From the NCBI GenBank assembly GCA_009843735.1, contig VYCW01000081.1:1-33111 (forward strand): DNA of 33,111 bases, written 5' to 3'. Shown here in pieces: positions 10,371 through 21,057 of the stretch. Origin of the DNA: Acidimicrobiaceae bacterium. GTDB lineage: Bacteria > Actinomycetota > Acidimicrobiia > Acidimicrobiales > Aldehydirespiratoraceae. The notes beneath the pieces were generated by a model, which saw only the letters and a program-made list of their open reading frames with translations, did not search any database and had not been told where the DNA came from. Within the stretch, counting starts at the first letter, position 1; the number at the start of each line of letters is the position of its first letter. The translations under genes and the position numbers were made by a program.

Positions 10371-11360
10371 TCACAACGGCTCAGACTTCAGGAATGACGG
10401 TCGGATGGGAGGCTCATGAAGGTAGAGCCTTTCGTCAAAAGCTTCCGTTGCTCGCAGGCCAGAATCGTCGGGAAACAATCTCATGATTCCTGATGATTCT
10501 TCGTCGATTTGTTGGATTCGACGCCGTGCCTCTGCTTGCATAGCGGGAAACTGACGAGCCGCTCGGTCATAGAGATCGCCCATAATCCTGTGACCAGCAG
10601 GATTTGTGGTGGCGAATATCATGAAATACAACGATGACCCTCGAGTGTTCTTGAGTTCAAGAGGGTGAGTCCACTTATAGCCAAGATCCGCTTCTAGTCG
10701 CCAACGCATTAGGTTCAAGTATTCTTCTCTTGCCTGCTCGCCACTGAGCGATTTATCTAGCCGACGATCATAGATATGTCTCCATGACCCTACCCCGAAC
10801 ACAGCATCTATTGTGCCCTCATCTTCGGGCCGCAGGTCTCTGCCTCTCGTCGGCAAGATGCGGCTGAACATCTGGGGCGAAAATAGAAGGAATAGTTCAG
10901 TCTTGTACTTGCCAGTCCGGAACTTGGAGAGGCGTTTGAGTGTGCACCACTTTGCTTCCAAGCCATTTGGATCAATGAAGGCAAACGTCGGAGCCCATGC
11001 AAAGGCCCGCAGTTCGGCGAGAGCGCGGACGATTTTCTCATTGCAGTCTCCTCCATACACTTTGATGTCTCGCCCAGGGTTCGCTGCAAGAAGTGATGAT
11101 TCTAGTTCTCTTGCTTTATCCTTTACCTCAAAGAATCGAAGTCTGGTGAATGGCGGATTGCTCGTTGATAGAGCGATCTGTGCAGAACTCTGGATCTCTT
11201 CATTTGTGATCCGATCTCGGTTGTCTGTTTCGCCAGCAAACAGGTCAAGGTAGATTCGCTCGGATGGCGCTTTGTACTTGGTTGTCGTGGTAAAGGCATC
11301 CAGATAGTCCCGTAGTACGTCGAGTTTGCCGCGTGTCCAGTATCCCCAAGTTCGGCTCAT
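10371..11360 (-). CDS. tcmP: Three-Cys-motif partner protein TcmP
   Basis: 329 residues. It begins MSRTWGYWTRGKLDVL and continues with IYLDLFAGETDN, matching the family named three-Cys-motif partner TcmP, which is almost always next to a Gp37/Gp68-type three-Cys protein, as here. The DLFAG segment, the acidic FFEV strand end near 76-79 and FIDPNGLEAKW near 127-137 resemble motifs I, II and IV of Rossmann methyltransferases, so a SAM-dependent activity is possible but unproven. The start codon overlaps the stop of the upstream partner by one base (TGATG), implying coupled translation. Base composition is clearly lower in G+C than the genes at 1-10321, consistent with transfer. Such pairs are frequent in mobile elements and defence islands. 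Confidence 0.88.
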   Translation of the reverse strand: MSRTWGYWTRGKLDVLRDYLDAFTTTTKYKAPSERIYLDLFAGETDNRDRITNEEIQSSAQIALSTSNPPFTRLRFFEVKDKARELESSLLAANPGRDIKVYGGDCNEKIVRALAELRAFAWAPTFAFIDPNGLEAKWCTLKRLSKFRTGKYKTELFLLFSPQMFSRILPTRGRDLRPEDEGTIDAVFGVGSWRHIYDRRLDKSLSGEQAREEYLNLMRWRLEADLGYKWTHPLELKNTRGSSLYFMIFATTNPAGHRIMGDLYDRAARQFPAMQAEARRRIQQIDEESSGIMRLFPDDSGLRATEAFDERLYLHEPPIRPSFLKSEPL

Positions 11361-12109
11361 CAGACGGCTTCATGTACTGAAGGCATATCGTTGTGAAGTG
11401 ACCCGCCTAACTCTCGGCCGCCTGCCTTGGGGGTGCGGCCTCCCCACTGCTTGAAGAAGAAATCGACGCCGGCGGCTGCACACTGGTCGCGGAGATCGAT
11501 GGCCCACGCCTCGTCCATGGGGCGGGCGTTGTGACCGCTTTCGCCCCCTGCGATTAGCCAGTGGATGTCTGTGAGGTCCAGGTTCACCAACGGGCCCAGT
11601 AAGGGCTCGGCGCTGATGAAGCGGACTACTGCCGGGACAGTGCGCAGATGATCGATGCGGAAGGCGTAGCGTCTGGACTCGACGCTGACGCCCATCCAGA
11701 CGTTGGGGGGCCAGTCCAGTTGGCTAGCCAGAGACGCTAGGCGCTTCGAGCGCTTGGTGAGGATCTGGTAGGTGTGGCGAGGCGTGTCGGTCATGACCTG
11801 GAAGACGCGCTGGATGAAGTCAAGTGGCACGTCGGGATGGAAGAGGTCGCTCATGGAGTTCACGAAGACCACGCGTGGCGCTTGCCACCGGTGGGGGAGT
11901 TCCAGAAGGTCGTCGTGCAGTGTGAGTCCGAAGCCGGGACCGCTGTGCTTGGGGTCGCCGTCGTTCTGGTACCGGGGATTGCCCATCGCCTTGAGGCGCT
12001 TGGCGAGGGTGAGCGCGTAGCAGTTATCGCAGCCGTGCGACGTGCGATCGCAGCCGGTGCTGGGATTCCAGGTTGTCTCGGTCCACTCAATACCGGTCCG
12101 GTCGGCCAC
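11360..12109 (-). CDS. DUF5131 / phage Gp37-Gp68 family three-Cys-motif protein
   Basis: 249 residues from a GTG at 12109, chosen because the protein then starts like the family (MADRTGIEWTETTWNP) and AAGG lies five bases upstream; GTGs at 12115 and 12151 are in frame too. The signature is C-x6-C-x2-C in GCDRTSHGCDNCYA, followed by SMSDLFHPDVP, ILTKRSKRL, NVWMGVSVES and WLIAGGESG. The three cysteines resemble the cluster ligands of radical SAM proteins, and a distant relation has been proposed, but cofactor and reaction are unknown. It is translated just ahead of tcmP. The family is common in phages and mobile regions. Confidence 0.88.
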   Translation of the reverse strand: MADRTGIEWTETTWNPSTGCDRTSHGCDNCYALTLAKRLKAMGNPRYQNDGDPKHSGPGFGLTLHDDLLELPHRWQAPRVVFVNSMSDLFHPDVPLDFIQRVFQVMTDTPRHTYQILTKRSKRLASLASQLDWPPNVWMGVSVESRRYAFRIDHLRTVPAVVRFISAEPLLGPLVNLDLTDIHWLIAGGESGHNARPMDEAWAIDLRDQCAAAGVDFFFKQWGGRTPKAGGRELGGSLHNDMPSVHEAV

Positions 12110-12417
12110 AGCCACCTTCCCTTCTCGCCCACTTATCCACAGGGTACTCACCGGTTCGCAGACTACGGACCGGCTGTGACAGGCCCTAGCCTCTAGCCTC
12201 GCGCTCGACGGTGGGGGTCAGCGACTCCATGAGGGCTGAGTCTCGGCTAGGGCGGACTCGAGCTCACCGGCCATCGCGGCTAGGAGGTCGTCGAGTCAAG
12301 GCGTTTGGCCGTCGGTGCCGGCTCGCCTACCTTGCGTTCTGCTCGATGTCCCATCCATGGACGCAAAGCACCGCTACACTCCAACACCAACCAGAATCGA
12401 GCATATGGAGACCCCAG
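12110..12417. other. Intergenic region between divergent Gp37/Gp68 and Ubl operons
   Basis: About 308 bases that must hold the promoters of both units. No convincing -35/-10 pair was recognised for either; TACACT at 12374 is a possible -10 for the plus strand without a matching -35. The region contains a decayed hsdM-like tail (12218-12292, listed separately), an inverted repeat ACCGG/CCGGT with arms at 12150-12155 and 12167-12172, and a single TTATCCACA at 12133. Confidence 0.5.
12218..12292 (-). pseudogene. Decayed fragment resembling the 3' end of hsdM
   Basis: Read on the minus strand this piece gives DLLAAMAGELESALAETQ, which aligns with PAVLAAEIAEDLQSALAEIQ at the C-terminus of the intact HsdM encoded at 15471-16931. 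At DNA level TCGGCTAGGGCGGA (12243-12256) and GCGGCTAGGA (12276-12285) are identical to 15541-15554 and 15577-15586; their spacing differs by exactly three bases. After the shared part one base is missing, the frame shifts and a stop follows. Just upstream a TGA closes the frame, so only the tail survives. It lies in the same orientation as the intact gene. Confidence 0.5.
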
Positions 12418-12690
12418 ATGGCAGAACAAGGCCCAGAATCCAAAGATGGTAAGTTCACCTATAAGGTCAACGGTACTCAGTTCGACTCAAAATCCGAATT
12501 CCTAACCGCACGACAAATCCTAGAGATTGCGGCCAAAGCAAACGTCATTCCTGGCAAGCCCGATGAGTACTATCTTCAAGGTGACAAGGGACGCTATAAG
12601 GATGACGATAAAATTGATCTTCAGGAAGACAGCATCTTCATCACTATTCCGCATACTCCGACACCTGTAGCTTCACGAAATCGCGTATGA
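12418..12690 (+). CDS. Ubiquitin-like protein (single multiubiquitin-type domain)
   Basis: 90 residues from the ATG at 12418, with GGAG eight bases upstream. After a short charged head, residues 12-80 follow the pattern of the Multi-ubiq beta-grasp domain: FTYKVNGTQF (strands 1-2), TARQILEIAAKA (helix), YYLQGDKGRY, KIDLQEDSIFITIP (last strands). Many relatives carry several domains in tandem; this one has one. The C-terminal tail PHTPTPVASRNRV has no Gly-Gly, so if the tail is joined to targets it must be trimmed or used in another way. The stop overlaps the next start (ATGA). It is presumably the modifier used by the E2-like and JAB-E1 proteins encoded downstream. Base composition is low in G+C for this genome. 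Confidence 0.8.
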   Translation: MAEQGPESKDGKFTYKVNGTQFDSKSEFLTARQILEIAAKANVIPGKPDEYYLQGDKGRYKDDDKIDLQEDSIFITIPHTPTPVASRNRV

Positions 12691-13058
12691 GCGAAAGTGT
12701 CAGCCGCGTGCAGGCCGAACTAATCGATCTCGGTTATGAGACGGAATGTTTCGGTTCTGCTCAGGGCCAGGTAGTGGCGTTCAACTATACGATCGAAACT
12801 GGATCTCACAGGGGCGAGACAGTGACGGTTGGAGTGAGCTTCCAAGAGGAAGGATACCCAGAGTACCCACCCCACTGGATCCATGTTACACCGCCGATTA
12901 ATGATGGTCGCGGAGGGAGTGTGCAGGAATACCACGATGGGAGTGGTCGTGCATGGGTTGCTATGAGTCGTCCTCCTGGCAATTGGGATCGAATACCGAC
13001 CAAGACTATGCGCGCATACATTTCTGAACACTTGCGCCGTATTTGGGCTGATGTATGA
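12687..13058 (+). CDS. E2-like (Prok-E2_E type) protein of a ubiquitin-like system
   Basis: 123 residues. The core has the UBC-like signature EGYPEYPPHWIHVTPPI (residues 55-71), corresponding to the YPxxPP strand-turn of E2 enzymes, then GGSVQEYHDGSGRAWVAMSRPPGNWD and a C-terminal helix. This fits the bacterial E2 family found between Multi-ubiq genes and JAB-E1 fusions. The only cysteine is C21, near the N-terminus; none follows the PP motif, where canonical E2 enzymes have the catalytic cysteine. It may therefore be a non-catalytic adaptor or use another residue, such as H83 or a serine. Both ends overlap neighbours by four bases (ATGA), a sign of coupled expression. Assignment rests on motif and context. 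Confidence 0.72.
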   Translation: MSESVSRVQAELIDLGYETECFGSAQGQVVAFNYTIETGSHRGETVTVGVSFQEEGYPEYPPHWIHVTPPINDGRGGSVQEYHDGSGRAWVAMSRPPGNWDRIPTKTMRAYISEHLRRIWADV

Positions 13059-14524
13059 ACTACGATGTTGCCTTAACGCATGGAGCTCATAGCCTCGCTA
13101 GGCAGCATCTTCTTCAGCATTTCAATGTCGGACATCTTCAGGAAGATCTCTGCTTTGCCTTGTGGCGACCATCGACAGCAGCGAATCGTCTTACCGCTCT
13201 GATCGATGAGGTTCTGATTCCACAGGAAGAGGACCGGCTTCTTCACGGAAACACGAGCTTCACTCCAGACTATATGGCGCGGGCAATCACAAGCGCTCGT
13301 CGCATGAACACTGGACTGGCGTTCATGCACAGTCACCCTGGCACTGGTTGGCAGGATATGAGCCCGACGGATGTCGTTGCGGAACGCGATGTTCTGGCCT
13401 ATCCGGCCGCTGCAACAGAACAGCCGCTACTAGGGCTAACGATCGGTAGTGACGGCTATTGGAGTGCTCGTTTGTGGATACACAATGGTCAAGCATTTGA
13501 ACGCTATTGGTGTGACAAGGTGCGAGTCATTGGACCAAAAACATTCGAAGTTCAATTCGGTCGGTATGCTGCATCCCCTGACTCTCGCCGAAACGTACTT
13601 AGGCGCACGTTCGATACCTGGGGACTTCACGGGCAGCAAACACTCTCGCGTCTACACATTGGTATCGTCGGGCTAGGCAGCGTCGGAAGCTCCGTCGCAG
13701 AATCCATAGCGCGTCTCGGCGTGGAGCGGGTGACGATAGTGGATCCTGACCAAGTAGAAGAGCATAACCTCGATCGCCTACTCAATGCCACAATCGATGA
13801 CATCGGCAAACGGAAGGTCGATGTCGCCGCGAAAGCGATGCGGCAACATAGCACAGCAGCACATCCGCAGGTTCTCACATATGCCACATCGGTGCATAAA
13901 GCAGATGCTTACCGAGCGATCTTGGAGTGTGACGTCATCTTCAGTTGCGTCGATCGGCCGATCGCTCGTGATGTTCTCAATTATGTCGCAATCGCTCACC
14001 TGGTGCCGGTTATTGACGGTGGGATTGCCGTGCAACTTGATGCACTACAAGATGGCATTTTTTCGGCGCATTGGCGAACACAATTGGTCACGCCGTATCA
14101 CCGGTGTATGCGATGCAGTGAACAGTATAGCACGGGAATGGTCATGACTGAACTGGACGGGTCTCTCGATGATCCCAGCTACCTTAACACATTGCCGGAA
14201 GACGGCGCCAGTGCCGGTGCGAACGTGTTTCCCTTTAGCCAGAGCCTCGCTTCGATGGAAGTCAATCTTATGCTACGGTACTTGCTGGCTCCTAGTTGGT
14301 GGAAGGGAATTCATGGACAAACCCATCAGCTAGTTACTGGTGAGACATACATAGATGCAGAACGTTGTGAACCATCTTGCGCTTTCTCGAACCGTGTAGC
14401 TAAGGGCGACTTGGAACATCCGTTCTATTTGACGGCGTCCGTTGGTACTAGCGATAGACGACCCGCCAGGACTCGGTTATCACGGCTTGCTAGTTTCTTC
14501 GAAAGGATATTCGGGAGAACTTGA
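13055..14524 (+). CDS. JAB/JAMM peptidase-E1 (ThiF-like) fusion protein
   Basis: 489 residues with two enzymes in one chain. Residues 1-150 form a JAB/JAMM metalloprotease: a Glu at about 30 and HSHPGTGWQDMSPTD (H92, H94, D106), the zinc-binding signature of deubiquitinases. Residues 195-450 form an E1/ThiF adenylation domain: GLGSVG (206-211), D230 ending the second strand, NLDR (238-241), K254, FSCVD (296-300) and a probable structural zinc site C351/C354 with C438/C442. It should adenylate the C-terminus of the Ubl, and the JAB half should trim or remove it. No separate E1 catalytic cysteine stands out beyond the zinc pairs and C298. Its last 35 bases overlap the convergent DUF2971 gene. 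Confidence 0.88.
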   Translation: MNYDVALTHGAHSLARQHLLQHFNVGHLQEDLCFALWRPSTAANRLTALIDEVLIPQEEDRLLHGNTSFTPDYMARAITSARRMNTGLAFMHSHPGTGWQDMSPTDVVAERDVLAYPAAATEQPLLGLTIGSDGYWSARLWIHNGQAFERYWCDKVRVIGPKTFEVQFGRYAASPDSRRNVLRRTFDTWGLHGQQTLSRLHIGIVGLGSVGSSVAESIARLGVERVTIVDPDQVEEHNLDRLLNATIDDIGKRKVDVAAKAMRQHSTAAHPQVLTYATSVHKADAYRAILECDVIFSCVDRPIARDVLNYVAIAHLVPVIDGGIAVQLDALQDGIFSAHWRTQLVTPYHRCMRCSEQYSTGMVMTELDGSLDDPSYLNTLPEDGASAGANVFPFSQSLASMEVNLMLRYLLAPSWWKGIHGQTHQLVTGETYIDAERCEPSCAFSNRVAKGDLEHPFYLTASVGTSDRRPARTRLSRLASFFERIFGRT

Positions 14525-15449
14525 CGGCAGCCGCAGAGTAGAAGCCAAGCTTCTCGAGCGCCACTCGTATCGTACGCTCAAGGGCTTCTTGGGACGGTGC
14601 GGCAGGTCCAATCGTAATTGTCGATTCAGTAGCATCGAGCATCCCTTTCAGCTTCAGGCGGTCGTCATAGCAATAGTGTCTAACTGAAGATCCTCCGTGT
14701 GCTCGATCGAAGTCTATGTGAATGTTCGCGAGGGGCTGTTGCTGCTTCAAGACCACGAGTCTACATTCGTGCTCATACTCATAATCTTCTGACTTGTATA
14801 GATGACGAATTGAATTCAATGCCTCAGCTATTAGGTCAGCCAAGCGGGAACCTATCGGTGATGAGGGCTCGATAAGCGGGTCAACTTGACTGAGAAATCC
14901 TCGCAGGCTTTCGGCAGTAGCTTCCACTTCATATTGACCGTAGAGAACCTTCTGGAGACCTCGTGAGGAAGCTAAGAACTCGATGGAGCATCCGCGACCC
15001 GAATCGCCATATGTGCGCCAGTATACAAGATCATCGCGACATGGTCGGTCACTCTCGCTTGGATCTGAAATGACGAATGAGGCGATGTAGACCGGCATTG
15101 GTGTCGCAGCCTTAAGCCAACTATAGTCAGATAGCCATTGAGAGTGTTGATCAAAGTACGCGCCTTCGCTGGGGTCGTTGGAGTTGTCTGAGTCGTACAG
15201 CCTTATCCTCCCATTCTTAAACATCGAGAACAAGCATGACGCGCTTGTGTAGTGAACGACACGTTCTTGTGATTTCGCTAGCTCATGACGATGACTGACA
15301 ATCATGTGGAGAATGTCAGCTGCCACTGGCAGGATGAAGCTCTCCATGAATTGCGCGACACGGTACGTGTCACCAGTCTGATCGAAATTGTGCTGTGCGG
15401 CTTCGATCAACCTCTTGAGGTAATCGAGATCGGTATTCCTGTGTGTCAA
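14490..15449 (-). CDS. DUF2971 domain protein
   Basis: 319 residues from a TTG at 15449, supported by GGAG six bases upstream; no ATG or GTG start gives the full domain. Typical DUF2971 motifs are VVHYTSASCLFSMFKNG with HYT at 66-68, IRLYDSDNSNDPSEG (82-96) and LVYWRTYGDSGRGCSIEF (141-158). The family is frequent in defence islands and its function is not established. The HYT followed by spaced polar motifs resembles, loosely, the H-Y-[ET] layout of ADP-ribosyltransferases; this is only a hypothesis. It lies 21 bases after hsdM on the same strand and so probably belongs to the restriction-modification transcript. The gene is less G+C-rich than hsdM. It overlaps the JAB-E1 gene tail to tail by 35 bases. 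Confidence 0.83.
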   Translation of the reverse strand: MTHRNTDLDYLKRLIEAAQHNFDQTGDTYRVAQFMESFILPVAADILHMIVSHRHELAKSQERVVHYTSASCLFSMFKNGRIRLYDSDNSNDPSEGAYFDQHSQWLSDYSWLKAATPMPVYIASFVISDPSESDRPCRDDLVYWRTYGDSGRGCSIEFLASSRGLQKVLYGQYEVEATAESLRGFLSQVDPLIEPSSPIGSRLADLIAEALNSIRHLYKSEDYEYEHECRLVVLKQQQPLANIHIDFDRAHGGSSVRHYCYDDRLKLKGMLDATESTITIGPAAPSQEALERTIRVALEKLGFYSAAAVKFSRISFRRN

Positions 15450-15470
15450 TGGATTCTCCGCTCAAGGGCG

Positions 15471-16931
15471 TCACCCGACAGCTCTCGTGTCTGGCGCCGC
15501 GTCGGCTGTGGCGGAGAGGGAGTCGGTGAGGGCTTGGATTTCGGCTAGGGCGGATTGGAGGTCTTCGGCGATCTCGGCGGCTAGGACGGCTGGAGGTGGG
15601 AGGTTGCCGATGTCCTCGAGGCTGTCATCGCGGAGCCAGAAGAGGTCGAGGCTGACCTTGTCGCGGGCCATGATTTCGTCGTAGGTGTAGCGCTTGAAGC
15701 GTTCGGACTCTTGGCGCTGGTGGCGGTCGGTGGGGTTGTAGCAGGAGACGAAGTCGTCAAGGTCGGCCCTGGTCAGCGGGTTCTGTTTGAGGGTGAAGTG
15801 CTTGTTGGTACGCAGGTCGTAGACCCACAGCTCTCGGGTCCAGGCCTGCTCCGCGCCTTCCCGGCGGCGGAAGAACAGCACGTTGGCCTTCACGCCTTGG
15901 GCGTAGAAGATGCCAGTGGGCAGGCGTAGCAGGGTGTGGACCTCGCAGTCGTGTAATAGCCGGCGGCGGATGGTCTCGCCAGCGCCGGCTTCGAACAGAA
16001 CGTTGTCGGGCACTACGACAGCGGCCGCTCCGCCGACTTTGAGCAGGCCCACGACATGCTGAACGAAGTTTAGTTGCTTGTTGCGGGTCGTCGCCCAGAA
16101 GTCCTCGCGCTCGTAGCTGTCCGATGAGGACCGGCCGAACGGTGGGTTGGTGAGCACCATGTCGAAGCGCTCGCCGCCAGGATGGGAGCGCAGGGCATCG
16201 TCGATGTGGATGGGGGAGTCGGACTCGGGGCTCTCGATGCCATGGAGCAGCAGGTTCATTGCGCACAGCCGGGCCGGCAGGTCGGCTATCTCCCAGCCCG
16301 TGAACGCGCCGGAGCGCAGATGGGCCACCTGGTCGGGCTCCAGAGGAGTGAAGCGTTCGATGATCGAACGGTAGGCGCCCAAGAAGAAGCCGCCGGTGCC
16401 GCAGGCCGGATCGCAGATGCGGTCGCCGGGCTCGGGGAGCATCACGTCGACGATGGCCGAGATCAGCGCCCTCGGCGTGAAGTACTGGCCCGCTCCCCGG
16501 GCGCCCTCCTGAGCGGTCTTCTCGATCAGGCCCTCGTACGCGGCGCCCTTGACGTCGGCGTCGTAGCTGAGCCACTCATGCTTGTCGATGAAGTCCTTGA
16601 TGAGCTGCTCCAGCTTGGCCGGGGTCTGGATCCGGTTGCGGGCCTTGTGGAAGACCACACCCAACATGTCATCGCCCGCTCCGAGTTCCGAGAGGGCCTC
16701 GCTGTAGTGGGCTTCGAGCTCGGCGCCCGACCGGGAGAGCAGCGACTGCCAGTCGTGCTCGATGGGCACCACCCGCTCACCGCCCAGCAGCTCGTGCTGC
16801 TCGTCGGACATCTTCAGGAACAGTAGGTAGGTGAGTTGCTCCAGGTAGTCGCCGTAGGACAGCCCGTCGTCGCGCAATACATCGCAGAAGTCCCACAGCC
16901 TCTGCACCAGCACCTTCGCGTCGGAGGTCAT
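15471..16931 (-). CDS. hsdM: Type I restriction-modification system methyltransferase subunit
   Basis: 486 residues, normal for HsdM. The N-terminal helical domain (1-140, with YLEQLTYLLFLKMSDE) is followed by the adenine methyltransferase domain: YFTPRALISAIVDVM, the SAM-binding DPACGTGGF (174-182), and the catalytic NPPF (262-265). It methylates adenine in the sequence chosen by HsdS, protecting host DNA. The C-terminal helix (near 455-480) contains the segment that reappears in decayed form at 12218-12292. The start overlaps the hsdS stop by four bases (ATGA). Composition matches hsdR rather than the A+T-richer genes to its left. Confidence 0.95.
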   Translation of the reverse strand: MTSDAKVLVQRLWDFCDVLRDDGLSYGDYLEQLTYLLFLKMSDEQHELLGGERVVPIEHDWQSLLSRSGAELEAHYSEALSELGAGDDMLGVVFHKARNRIQTPAKLEQLIKDFIDKHEWLSYDADVKGAAYEGLIEKTAQEGARGAGQYFTPRALISAIVDVMLPEPGDRICDPACGTGGFFLGAYRSIIERFTPLEPDQVAHLRSGAFTGWEIADLPARLCAMNLLLHGIESPESDSPIHIDDALRSHPGGERFDMVLTNPPFGRSSSDSYEREDFWATTRNKQLNFVQHVVGLLKVGGAAAVVVPDNVLFEAGAGETIRRRLLHDCEVHTLLRLPTGIFYAQGVKANVLFFRRREGAEQAWTRELWVYDLRTNKHFTLKQNPLTRADLDDFVSCYNPTDRHQRQESERFKRYTYDEIMARDKVSLDLFWLRDDSLEDIGNLPPPAVLAAEIAEDLQSALAEIQALTDSLSATADAAPDTRAVG

Positions 16932-18211
16932 GCCGTAACTTTCTGTCGCTTCGGCGTGGCCGTGCGGGAGGCCGCGATGCGTTCTAGCAAGACCGACGCG
17001 GGCTCGTCGTAAGGGCTCTGCGGCACAAGTTGGCCTGCGAACGCGGCGGCGAGAACAGCTCGTCGGAGCGAGTCTGCCCGTTGGCGAGCGCTACTCACGC
17101 CGGCCTGGACTTCCATAACGGCCTTGATCTCCTGGGAGACCCGCCCAACAATCGTCTGTTGTTCTGCAATCGACGCAGGAATCGGAATCTCAAGTTCCTC
17201 TATTGTTCTCTGGCTTATCTTTGGCATCGAGCCTGCTATTCCCTGAGCCGAAAGGCGGAAGTAGCGGCGGACACTTGACGACCGCAAAGCGAACTCGAGG
17301 TATGCCGGCAGCAGGGTGTGGTCGGTCCTAACGCGAATGAGCAGGTCTGAGAATACTGCCCAGCCGCTTGGCCCAGAATACAGCGCAGCTGTCCCGACGA
17401 GTTCGGGCGTATTCGACCGCTGAACCAGTATGTCACCGGATTGCAGTGTCAGTTGGTCTCGCTGTGCCTGCGGTACGGCTGCAGTCCTCGTGTTGTCCTC
17501 GGTGAATGCGCGATTGGTCACGGCCGTAAGTGTCAAGACACGCGTATTCCCAGCAGACGAACGCGGCGGGGAGAACCCGTTACGAAGTGGCTCAGATAGA
17601 CGGTCGCCCAGTCGGTGTACTTGACCCCTCATCGCTTCGTTGATGACTGCTTGTTCCAGTACCTCCGTTTGTCTCGCAACACTCCGCAGGTTGGTGTAGA
17701 CGGCGTCGAGGCGGGAAAGGTTTTCTTCGATGGCGACGACGATCCGCTGCTGCTCCGCTAGCGGTGCAACCGGAATTGGTTGCTGCAGAATGGGGCCTGA
17801 CTTTGCTCGTGTGTGCGAGCCGGTGGCTCCTTCAACGGACAGCTTGATCCAGTCTCGGAAGCTCGGTGAGGACAGATACTGCTGAATGAAGCTCGACATT
17901 CGTGGCTCGTGCGGTCGAAGCACCAAGTATTCGGTGGACGCGATTTGTGGATTGCCCTCAGTTCTTCCGACGACCCACACGCGATTGATGCGTGGATTGA
18001 TCTTGCAGAGCAGCACGTCATCCGGCTCGACGCCTCGCTTGCCGCTCTTGATTTGAGTTCCGTCGATCCGCTCCGGGCGCCCCGAGGAGAACGTTGGCAC
18101 GCTATAGAGGTCGTAGGTAGTCCCGGGTTCTGGCGTCAGCTGACCACGGATCTCAACTCCGAGGTCGCTGAGCTTCGCCCATTCCCAGCCGGAGGGTAGG
18201 TCGGCCGTCAT
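16928..18211 (-). CDS. hsdS: Type I restriction-modification system specificity subunit
   Basis: 427 residues from the ATG at 18211, which overlaps the hsdR stop (ATGA). The protein starts MTADLPSGWEWAKLSDLG, typical for HsdS; the open frame continues upstream only inside hsdR and that part is not protein-like. Two target-recognition domains (about 1-150 and 205-360) are each followed by a conserved helical region: PLAEQQRIVVAIEENLSRLD and PASIAEQQTIVGRVSQEIKA. These set the distance between the two half-sites of the bipartite DNA target, which cannot be predicted by eye. The TRD-coding region (17100-18100) is less G+C-rich than the ends, as is common for exchanged recognition domains. Confidence 0.94.
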   Translation of the reverse strand: MTADLPSGWEWAKLSDLGVEIRGQLTPEPGTTYDLYSVPTFSSGRPERIDGTQIKSGKRGVEPDDVLLCKINPRINRVWVVGRTEGNPQIASTEYLVLRPHEPRMSSFIQQYLSSPSFRDWIKLSVEGATGSHTRAKSGPILQQPIPVAPLAEQQRIVVAIEENLSRLDAVYTNLRSVARQTEVLEQAVINEAMRGQVHRLGDRLSEPLRNGFSPPRSSAGNTRVLTLTAVTNRAFTEDNTRTAAVPQAQRDQLTLQSGDILVQRSNTPELVGTAALYSGPSGWAVFSDLLIRVRTDHTLLPAYLEFALRSSSVRRYFRLSAQGIAGSMPKISQRTIEELEIPIPASIAEQQTIVGRVSQEIKAVMEVQAGVSSARQRADSLRRAVLAAAFAGQLVPQSPYDEPASVLLERIAASRTATPKRQKVTA

Positions 18212-21057
18212 GCGGCTAGGGCGAGGGTTAGTTCTTCGAGCAGGGGGGTGAGGTCGTTGCCGAAGAGTTGGCGGGCGCGGCCTAGGCCGCCGTGGGTGCT
18301 GAAGGGTGGGTTCTGCAGGTCTGCGGGGGCGGCGGTGAGGCTTGCGGCGATGTGTTCTTTGATGAGGTGGAGGTAGGCGGTTTGTTCGTCGGTGAAGTGC
18401 CGGTCCAGTGTCTGTTGCTGGTGGAGCCAGGACTCGAAGCGCTCGTTTACCAGGTCGGGGTAGGCGACCAGTTCGTTCGTGTGGCCGAGCGTGTGGCGGA
18501 CGAGGCTCACGAGATCCGTGCTGACGCGGTGGCCTGAGCCTTTGACTTTGGAGGCGTCGAGGGTCTCGTAGGCCTGCCACAGCGCCTCCGTGGTCCAGCG
18601 ATGAGGTGGGCGGCCGATGGCCTGGGCCAGTTCCCTGATGTCGGTGTAGGTGAGCCCACCACCATAGGGCTGGCTGTAGAGAACCTGTAGGGCGGTGATC
18701 TCGTCCTTGTTGTCCTCGATGAACTGGCGAAACGACTGGGTCTGCTCCCGGGCCCGGTCAGCGGCCTCGCGGGAGTATTCGCCCGAGATCACCTTGTCTT
18801 TGGACGCGGTGTCCATCACCTGCTCGTAGCTGCGGCGGATGTCGATGAGCTTCTCCCGTAGTTCGGCATTGCCGGCAATCGGCTGCACTGCCTCGGTGAT
18901 CATGCGCTTGGCGGTGGCCTTCACCTGTTCGGGGGTTGGGTCGTCGGTTCCGGTCTCGGCTGCGGCCTCGGTGTGCTGGCGGTCGGGGTCTAGTGCGTCG
19001 GTGATCTGGCGGACCAGGTCGTCTAGCCCGATCCCGGCGACCTTCTCGACGGCGGCCCGGTCCTCCGCAGTGATTCGGCGGTTCAGGCGGGACAGGCGCG
19101 ACGCCACTGACGACACGACCGCCTCCTCGGTGGAGCCGACGCCGATCTGGTTCAGCAGCCGGTCGAAGCTGACGCCCTTCTTGCGTTCGAGCGGCACGGT
19201 GTCATGCAGGCCGGCGTCGGTCACCCCCACCGCGTCGACGATCACGAAGCGGTCCTTGACCCTGGCGTCGGGCGTCACGGCCCGCAGGTCGTTCTCGTCG
19301 ATCACCCGCACGCCCCGGCCCTTCATCTGCTCGAAGAAGTTACGGCTGCGCACCATGCGCATGAACACCACGCACTCGATCGGCTTCACATCGGTGCCGG
19401 TGGCGATCATGTCCACGGTCACCGCGATGCGGGTCGGATAGTTGGTGCGGAACTGCTGGAGCAGATCCTCGGGCTTGTTGCCGGCGTCACCGGACTTGTA
19501 GGTGATCTTCACTGCGCCCTCGTTGCTCAATCCGAACTCCTGGCGCACGACTTGGACGATGTCGTCGGCGTGGCTGTCGTCCTTGGCGAAGATCAGCGTC
19601 TTGGGAATGTGCGTGAGCAGGCCGTCGTCGCGGCGCTCACGGTCATCGAAGATCACCGGCAGCGAGTCGCGCAGGGTGCGCACCACGGTGCGGATCTGGT
19701 CGGGGGCCACCACCTCGCGGTCGAGCTCGGCCGCGTTGTAGTCGATGTCCTCGTCAACCTTCTCCAGGCGGAGCTGGCGGGTCTCTCGGTCACGGAACTC
19801 GGTCACGAAATCGGCCGGGACGGTGCCGCCGGATTCGGTGATCTCGGTGCGGATGCGGAACACGTCGAAGTCCACGTTCACCCGGTCGGCCACCGCCTGC
19901 TCGTGGCCGTACTCCATCACCATGTTCTGGTCGAAGAACGCGAAGGTCTGGATGCCCGGCGTGGCGGTGAGCCCCACGAGGAAGGCGTCGAAGTACTCCA
20001 GCACCTGGCGCCACACCCCGTAGATCGAGCGGTGGCACTCGTCGATGATGATCAAGTCGTAGAACTCGATGGGTACCTTCGGGTTGTAGGACACCTCCAC
20101 CGGCTGTTCGGGCGCAGTTTCGAAACCGGTCTGCTCGTCAAGGCTCTCGTCGTAGTCGTCGTCGCCTCGCAGGATCGAATACAGCCGCTGGATGGTGGAC
20201 ACATGCACCTTGGTGGCCGTCTCGTCGGCTATATCCAGCCGTGAGGTCGCGAGCCGGCGGACGTTGTACAACTCGGTGAACTTGCGGCGGTCGTCGGGAA
20301 CGGTGAAGTCCTCGAACTCCCGGACCGCCTGACGGCCCAGGTTGGCCCGGTCCACCAGGAACAGGATCCGCCGGGCACCGGCGTGGCGCACCAGCCGGTA
20401 GCAGACGTTGGCCGCGGTGAACGTCTTGCCCGCTCCGGTGGCCATCTGGATGAGCGCCCGAGGGCGGTTCTCCTGTAGAGACTCCTCCAGGTTGCGGATT
20501 GCCTCGGCCTGTGCCGGCCACAGCCCAGGCGCTTCGGGCTCCAGTTCAGGCAGCAGTGGCAGGCCGGCTCGCAGGGTGCTGTAGTCGCCCAGCCGCACAT
20601 GCTCGTCAACCCAGTGGGCCAGCATCTCGGGCCGGTGGAACGTGAACACCCGCCGGCTGGCCGGAACCGGGTCGAGTCCACAGGTGAAGCGGGTCTCGGC
20701 GCCGGTCGACTCGTAACCGAACGGCAGCGCCCCGTCCACCTCGAACGCGGGCAACCAGTCCGGAGAGGAGACTTGGTACTTGCGGGTCTGAGGCTCGACA
20801 CCGGTGAGCGTGCTGCCGGCCTTCTTGGCCTCGATCACCCCGACGGCCTGGCGATCCACGAACAGCACGTAGTCGGCCGGACCGGCGTCGGTGGGCACCT
20901 CACGCACCGCCACGCCCCGCGCGGCGGCCACGGCAGCGTGCTTGTAGTCCTGCACTTCCCAGCCGCACGCCACGAGCTGCTCATCGATCTCCATCCGAGC
21001 GCGCTGCTCTGGATCGAGATACTTCGACGACGGGTCGGAGGCGTCAGCGGAAGGCAC
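18208..21057 (-). CDS. hsdR: Type I restriction-modification system restriction subunit (EcoEI-like)
   Basis: 949 residues from a GTG at 21057. The N-terminal nuclease domain has D62 and E76-A-K78 (VIEAKK), a PD-(D/E)XK core. Then comes the SF2 motor: Walker A MATGAGKT (205-212), DECH (339-342), TATP (364-367), and later TGTDVKP and MKGRGVR. The C-terminal third resembles the EcoEI R C-terminal domain, which binds the methylase core. It translocates and cuts unmodified DNA when bound to HsdS and HsdM. It is the first gene of the R-S-M unit, with about 210 bases of non-coding DNA upstream toward hicA. No ribosome binding site is obvious. Confidence 0.94.
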   Translation of the reverse strand: MPSADASDPSSKYLDPEQRARMEIDEQLVACGWEVQDYKHAAVAAARGVAVREVPTDAGPADYVLFVDRQAVGVIEAKKAGSTLTGVEPQTRKYQVSSPDWLPAFEVDGALPFGYESTGAETRFTCGLDPVPASRRVFTFHRPEMLAHWVDEHVRLGDYSTLRAGLPLLPELEPEAPGLWPAQAEAIRNLEESLQENRPRALIQMATGAGKTFTAANVCYRLVRHAGARRILFLVDRANLGRQAVREFEDFTVPDDRRKFTELYNVRRLATSRLDIADETATKVHVSTIQRLYSILRGDDDYDESLDEQTGFETAPEQPVEVSYNPKVPIEFYDLIIIDECHRSIYGVWRQVLEYFDAFLVGLTATPGIQTFAFFDQNMVMEYGHEQAVADRVNVDFDVFRIRTEITESGGTVPADFVTEFRDRETRQLRLEKVDEDIDYNAAELDREVVAPDQIRTVVRTLRDSLPVIFDDRERRDDGLLTHIPKTLIFAKDDSHADDIVQVVRQEFGLSNEGAVKITYKSGDAGNKPEDLLQQFRTNYPTRIAVTVDMIATGTDVKPIECVVFMRMVRSRNFFEQMKGRGVRVIDENDLRAVTPDARVKDRFVIVDAVGVTDAGLHDTVPLERKKGVSFDRLLNQIGVGSTEEAVVSSVASRLSRLNRRITAEDRAAVEKVAGIGLDDLVRQITDALDPDRQHTEAAAETGTDDPTPEQVKATAKRMITEAVQPIAGNAELREKLIDIRRSYEQVMDTASKDKVISGEYSREAADRAREQTQSFRQFIEDNKDEITALQVLYSQPYGGGLTYTDIRELAQAIGRPPHRWTTEALWQAYETLDASKVKGSGHRVSTDLVSLVRHTLGHTNELVAYPDLVNERFESWLHQQQTLDRHFTDEQTAYLHLIKEHIAASLTAAPADLQNPPFSTHGGLGRARQLFGNDLTPLLEELTLALAA

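Follow-up and report, generated by a model that had tools for sequence, protein, structure and literature searches.

Three overlapping genes in the window (the whole stretch analysed here, 33,111 nucleotides of an Acidimicrobiaceae bacterium genome) almost certainly form an operon of the Bub (bacterial ubiquitination-like) family, which corresponds to type 6e of Iyer 2006 and received its present name later (PMC13373217). They encode a single-domain ubiquitin-like protein (Ubl), an E2-like protein with an invariant serine and a JAB peptidase fused to an E1 domain, and in the subgroup of relatives around the window they are typically accompanied by a convergent gene of DUF2971 type (Table 1).

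The cassette and its relatives

A preliminary description had listed three genes on the plus strand, linked through two ATGA overlaps, and the open reading frames and the letters themselves confirm this layout with overlaps at 12687-12690 (Ubl/E2) and 13055-13058 (E2/JAB-E1). Because that description ended at 14524, it missed the convergent DUF2971-type gene at 14490-15449. The low G+C that it ascribed to the cassette is borne out by values of 0.522 for the three genes and 0.540 for 10371-15449 compared to 0.688 for the window outside 10371-15449. A congener carries a cassette 91% identical to the window's (locus L018), and all four genes are under purifying selection, with dN/dS values between the two loci ranging from 0.09 (E2 and E1) over 0.15 (Ubl) to 0.20 (DUF2971). 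These low values and the recurrence of the gene order in relatives of many phyla place the operon beyond chance. A promoter scan of 12100-15600 found no promoter. Upstream of the cassette lie a TcmP-type gene (TIGR04474) and a DUF5131/radical-SAM gene (10371-12151, minus strand; PADLOC candidates PDC-M41A/M41B), and the congener has TcmP-type and DUF5131/radical-SAM-like genes in the equivalent position. On the other side, a type I restriction system (HsdM, HsdS, HsdR-like; 15471-21057, minus strand) adjoins the DUF2971-type gene.

Table 1. Features of the cassette and of its predicted proteins, in positions of the window
Feature	Position	Strand	Remarks
Ubl gene (BubA-like)	12418..12690	+	90 aa, single ubiquitin-like domain, ORF
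Ubl tail SRNRV behind T-P-V-A	12673..12687	+	five codons, which most relatives lack; putative site of JAB trimming
E2/UBC-fold gene (BubB-like) without E2 cysteine	12687..13058	+	123 aa, includes YPEYPPHWIHV
Ser94 codon	12966..12968	+	predicted acceptor at E2 cysteine position
JAB peptidase-E1 (ThiF) fusion gene (BubCD-like)	13055..14524	+	489 aa
JAB metal motif H92-S-H94 ... S103 .. D106	13328..13372	+	kept in 86, 87, 86 and 87 of 87
E1 adenylation region with two Cys pairs	13610..14410	+	C351/C354 and C438/C442, presumed zinc site
Tail-to-tail overlap of E1 and DUF2971-type genes	14490..14524	.	35 bp
DUF2971-type gene, convergent	14490..15449	-	319 aa, TTG start; fourth cassette gene in the window's subgroup

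The assignment to the Bub family follows most directly from the JAB-E1 protein, whose best match in the PDB is Citrobacter BubCD (9ea4), at E 4.8e-22 for the single sequence and at E 9.1e-33 for a profile of seven family members. Pfam found ThiF (5.6e-34) and no JAB in the window's protein, and the fusion of JAB with ThiF/E1 proposed from the sequence stands on these matches. Among the other families to which the preliminary description had pointed, Multi_ubiq matched the window's Ubl at E 0.043, below the family cut-off, and Prok-E2_E did not match the window's E2-like protein. Type II CBASS (Cap2/Cap3, with an E1-E2 fusion and a CD-NTase) was considered and rejected, given that the listed PADLOC E1-E2 matches (best 25 of 33) map to the ThiF/E1 part and no CD-NTase was found among the window proteins scanned with Pfam.

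An E1 profile scan of genome contigs yielded 162 relatives. The 80 best of them, joined by the window, L007 and five plasmid loci, make up an analysis set of 87 E1s, 85 E2-like proteins and 85 Ubls. Loci L001-L006 and L008-L012 were dropped before counting as duplicates or more distant E1s (L006 without an E1), and the 87 E1s retain L017, which belongs to another branch, and the near-copies L028/L029 and L054/L055. L018 appears to be the same locus as G405/L009, with identical proteins, and L075 likewise the same as G320/L008. In a quick maximum-likelihood tree of 90 E1s, which is unrooted and has long branches flagged by the program in several of the outside rows, the window's branch (84 rows) is separated from six other rows with an SH-aLRT of 100. 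L025 and L084 stand outside this tree, and L029 and L055 outside the clustering of neighbours. DUF6527 adjoins the operon in five of the six rows outside the window's branch, L102 being the one without. The window's own subgroup comprises eleven loci, namely a ten-row set of the tree (support 99) and L025, which was placed there by 56% identity only.

Across the phylum, 8 of 396 genomes have an E1 match at 1e-40, and within the genus the cassette occurs in 2 of 16, counting the window's own. Another genome of the same genus (G409) carries a more distant E1 (L011, 29%) beside HTH and ImmA-like genes, which brings the E1 types of this sort in the genus to two or more. Further afield, the plasmid matches H11, H13-H15, H29 and H30 are haloarchaeal JAB-E1 relatives of about 28-32% identity. 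At G150:C1:952226-956277 (L109, L112) the E1 match is split in two with about 2.6 kb between the parts, perhaps an interrupted gene. Pattern scans of viral contigs found no relative of the E1 or DUF2971 type.

Ubl end, JAB-E1 fusion and the E2-like serine

On its own, the window's Ubl matched no PDB sequence at E up to 1, and a profile of 31 Ubl sequences, 6 of which match Multi_ubiq at E up to 0.01, found a multi-ubiquitin protein at E 0.0043. Its AF2 model (pLDDT 79.4) shows the beta-grasp order E-E-(E)-H-E-E-E expected from the preliminary description, with ubiquitin (E 1.0e-3) and the Citrobacter multi-ubiquitin filament (2.1e-3) as nearest Foldseek matches and none below E 0.001. The single domain to which that description drew attention is real but hardly unusual, considering that 36 of the 85 Ubls are single by a short frame and one profile match (among them L083, whose frame is cut short) and that Iyer 2006, in the part used here, already had one to three repeats. 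Of the others, 40 have a long frame or several matches, and in 9 the Ubl and the E2 form one protein. The window, its congener and some further loci owe their place in this group of 40 solely to an open frame that extends upstream of the likely start.

The C-terminus of these Ubls is well conserved, with 65 of 76 standalone proteins ending exactly in V-[A/S] (V-A in 19 and V-S in 46), a Thr two residues before the Val in 54 of these 65, and a Gly-Gly end in none of the 76. Six Ubls have tails of 4-5 residues behind V-[A/S], comprising a five-residue extension behind TPVA in the window and L018 and 4-5 residues behind V-S in L027, L036, L048 and L056. The remaining ends are T-A-S (L066), T-S followed by two residues (L087), P-V-E (L007), E-G (L017 of the other branch) and the shortened frame of L083, and in all nine Ubl-E2 fusions the V-[A/S] motif continues straight into the E2. 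Activation of the C-terminus would first require that a tail or a fused E2 be taken off. The JAB, being in one polypeptide with the E1, is the evident choice for this step, and trimming of the Ubl tail by the JAB seems plausible; the Ubl-E2 fusions, if uncut, would argue against conjugation in those species.

The residues that such a pathway would need are largely present in the JAB-E1 protein. In addition to the metal motif (Table 1), JAB residue E30 is kept in 86 of 87 proteins, and D106 aligns with D104 of BubCD, for which a PDB entry names a D104A form. The E1 residues G206, D230, D232, N238, R241, K254 and D300 are found in 87 of 87, so that the JAMM and adenylation residues are near-invariant and the E1 ATP site is, by its residues, intact. 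The presumed zinc-site cysteines are similarly conserved (C351 in 87, C354 in 86, C438 in 82 and C442 in 85 of the 87 E1s). Other Cys columns kept in at least 30 of the 87 rows are C33 (61), C153 (67), C292 (82) and C298 (86), and no candidate for a crossover cysteine was found among the columns kept at this level, for which reason an E1 thioester was rejected. Ser395, seen in 76 of 87 and thus not invariant, is a possible E1 nucleophile.

The E2-like protein of the window has no match in Pfam and, searched alone, none better than E 0.84 in the PDB. A profile of 43 relatives (24 of which match Prok-E2_E, the window's own not among them) found Citrobacter BubB (9eae_C) at E 3.2e-6, with the next E2 at 0.043. 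The AF2 model of the window's protein (mean pLDDT 93.1) has helix, strands and helix in UBC order, and Foldseek ranked BubB 9eae_C first (E 0.056, prob 0.93, TM 0.49). Ubc12 and TSG101-UEV came next, an RWD domain was one of the weak matches, and unrelated folds ranked lower. The earlier notion of a UBC-like protein with YPEYPPHWIHV holds for the fold but leaves out that the protein has an invariant serine and no conserved cysteine.

This serine, Ser94, is present in 85 of 85 aligned proteins at what we take to be the classical E2 cysteine site (Y-P-x-x-P-P ... C ... W), and W100 behind it in 72 of 85. No cysteine at all is found in 42 of the 85 proteins, and in no alignment column does Cys reach 8 rows. 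Judged from this alignment, a thioester shared across the E2 family is excluded, and a classical cysteine E2, including that of Bil type, was rejected on the same counts. HMMER aligns Ser94 with the Ser of the BubB W-S-R motif. Since the serine is invariant and the Bub work reportedly involves oxyester chemistry, transfer of the Ubl as a Ser94 oxyester is likely, though Ser94 could have a structural role. In the part of Iyer 2006 drawn on here, this E2 is called inactive.

The convergent DUF2971-type gene and other neighbours

The fourth gene encodes a protein that matches DUF2971 (PF11185) at E 5.2e-4 with 21.7 bits, against a gathering cut-off of 22. DUF2971 matches were seen in 6 of 9 relatives of this protein at E up to 0.1, and the PADLOC candidate family PDC-S31 matches 8 of the 9 DUF2971-type proteins. 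An HMM of these nine proteins, run on the open frames of 98 sequences, detected the complete gene in the window and its duplicates, the congener, L019-L024 and L026, and nowhere else. This amounts to an intact gene in 9 of the 11 subgroup loci, a remnant in one and none at the 76 other loci, absences being weak at some loci with little sequence beyond the operon. The remnant (L025:1415-1615, from a Truepera MAG) is C-terminal only and lies behind a 56% identical JAB-E1, and L027 is the sole subgroup member without the gene.

All nine intact copies are convergent to the E1 gene, which they overlap by 35 bp in six cases (the window, L018, L019, L020, L021 and L023), by 41 bp in L022 and by 26 bp in L026, with a 10-bp gap in L024. 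They come from six phyla (Actinomycetota, Pseudomonadota, Latescibacterota, Chloroflexota, Gemmatimonadota and Nitrospirota), these labels being the filings of MAGs whose bins can contain foreign contigs. Several subgroup members (AqS3, SB06xx) are presumably sponge MAGs. Enriched restriction systems and lateral transfer among symbiont taxa are described in the part of a sponge MAG study available to us (PMC8163846). The DUF2971-type gene was found in 2 of 41 relatives' genomes, exactly the two with the cassette, and was missing from three others whose E1 matches are more distant; across the phylum it was found in 1 of 396 genomes, the window's own. Of 198 genomes in the class, one matched the Pfam family DUF2971 at 1e-5, an undercount because the window's own copy was also missed.

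The DUF2971-type profile had no PDB match at E up to 1. An ADP-ribosyltransferase, guessed from the His-Tyr-Thr start and the E-x-E motif, is not claimed as an identity for this protein, the comparison with DarT giving only a faint hint: hhalign against five DarT proteins of eleven loci (the other six not found by the seed) reached a probability of 1.6% and an E of 0.033 in 19 aligned columns of DarT's N-terminal motif, compared to 0.06-0.62% for three unrelated controls. Also intended for comparison, the PTS_2-RNA family matched none of 148 genomes.

The neighbourhood upstream also sets the subgroup apart, with an ImmA/IrrE or XRE-type gene at 45 of 76 loci outside the subgroup and 0 of 11 within it, though at six of the regulator-negative loci less than 4 kb of sequence precedes the E1, and L025, one of the six, has next to none upstream. 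CapK/CapS seeds matched L083 only, where genes like the upstream hypothetical and winged-HTH genes of the Citrobacter operon, which we read as CapK/CapS-like, are found in Paractinoplanes (L083:3622-5137). At L045, L049, L053, L074, L077, L091 and L093, the upstream neighbour of the Ubl gene encodes a conserved and perhaps sigma-factor-like protein of about 200 aa.

Proposed mechanism, alternatives and known systems

A Bub-family ubiquitin-like conjugation operon is, with its mechanism included, the explanation that we favour as a whole and consider reasonably probable. The N-terminal JAB of the fusion would cut the five-residue Ubl tail to leave ...T-P-V-A-COOH, the E1 domain, in which the ATP-site residues are present, would adenylate the exposed C-terminus, and the Ubl would then form an oxyester with Ser94 of the E2-like protein, with no E2 cysteine step. 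From there it may be transferred to targets or small nucleophiles, which the JAB could reverse, and the DUF2971-type protein, by its linkage, might be an effector, substrate or regulator in the same pathway. Because a type I restriction system adjoins, the setting suggests a role in phage defence or stress response; in the portion of the Bub literature cited here, phage protection by Bub operons is not shown as of 2026 (PMC13373217). We count against this explanation the inactive E2 of Iyer 2006, the missing E1 crossover cysteine, the presence of Ser395 in just 76 of 87 proteins, the lack of a Foldseek match below E 0.001 for either model and the absence of the DUF2971-type gene from L027.

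The E2-like protein might instead be a non-catalytic adaptor of RWD/UEV type, which merely binds the Ubl or the target while targets receive the Ubl straight from the E1 adenylate. Such an adaptor would agree with the inactive reading in the part of Iyer 2006 used here, with the missing cysteine and with the weak Foldseek matches, which include TSG101-UEV and an RWD domain, yet it seems unlikely to us in view of a Ser94 kept in 85 of 85 proteins, with the Trp behind it in 72, while most of the protein varies (28% mean column identity, 43 rows). Even less credence, to the point of being improbable, is due to an Ubl that acts as a structural protein (filament or scaffold) or sulfur-type carrier and not as a covalent tag: the conservation of V-[A/S] at the end and an intact ATP site in the E1 favour C-terminal activation, although the Foldseek matches to the Citrobacter multi-ubiquitin filament and the lack of a Gly-Gly end would suit it. 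The Citrobacter filaments reportedly consist of proteins with three Ubl domains, and we count the one domain found here against this reading as well.

Regarding the fourth gene, an independent passenger of the island that happens to lie beside the operon would explain why L027 lacks it and L025 has a remnant, its tie to the operon being one of linkage. The same convergent site with a mostly 35-bp overlap in different phyla, and the confinement to genomes with the cassette among the 41 relatives and to the window's own among the 396 of the phylum, make such a passenger rather doubtful. The linkage supports a DUF2971-type gene that would be part of the operon unit in the window's subgroup; the portions of the published Bub accounts at hand name no effector or partner.

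Taken further, and as a possibility that we hold somewhat short of probable, the operons could represent a second Bub branch in which the Ubl is activated on a C-terminal Ala/Ser and not on Gly and carried as a serine oxyester. One cross-phylum subgroup would have added a dedicated convergent DUF2971-type protein, its gene locked by the 3' end to the E1 gene. The result would be an immune module of four genes that passes from one phylum to another, perhaps in the microbiomes of sponges. With a Ubl without Gly-Gly and an invariant serine, the departure of E1-E2 systems from thioesters becomes addressable on three small proteins, which also bear on the purpose of a JAB fused to an E1, and the DUF2971-type gene offers a genetic handle on the role of this Bub subgroup.

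Among known systems, the type 6e operons of Iyer 2006 comprise, in the part drawn on here, polyUbl, an inactive E2/RWD, JAB-E1 and a metal-binding protein Y. The cassette shares three of these four components and the N-terminal position of the JAB, and its one Ubl domain lies within the one to three repeats given there, with a solo Ubl in 'Amac'. It differs in the DUF6527-type gene, which was not found here and in whose place the convergent DUF2971-type gene stands. For this downstream DUF6527 or metal-binding protein Y, which is usual but not universal in type 6e, phmmer with the L017 protein returned L017 alone, and a scan for its Cys/His signature found none but also missed L017, being too strict. 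DNA-damage regulators (CapW, CapH+CapP or CapK+CapS) adjoin part of the Bub operons, 219 of 544 carrying CapW or CapH+CapP according to the part of the Bub account used here (PMC13373217). The ImmA/XRE-type neighbours resemble this CapH+CapP association, with the CapH/CapP identity being our own reading, and no ImmA/XRE or CapK/CapS match was found at the window's subgroup.

With the anti-phage Bil operons (BilABCD), as far as the published material used here goes, the cassette shares the idea of combining Ubl, E1, E2 and JAB, but there E1, E2 and JAB are separate genes, whereas here one gene encodes JAB and E1 together and a serine occupies the E2 site. The cassette resembles Citrobacter Bub (BubA, BubB and BubCD; PDB 9ea4, 9ea5, 9eae and 9eav) in the JAB-E1 fusion, the beta-grasp Ubl, the gene order and the UBC-fold protein with a W-S-R motif. 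The Citrobacter plasmid relative L098, compared by eye, differs from the window in three Ubl repeats fused to the E2, in DUF6527 downstream of the operon and in the upstream hypothetical and winged-HTH genes, read as CapK/CapS-like, and its E1 is without either Cys pair, whereas the window's E1 has both.
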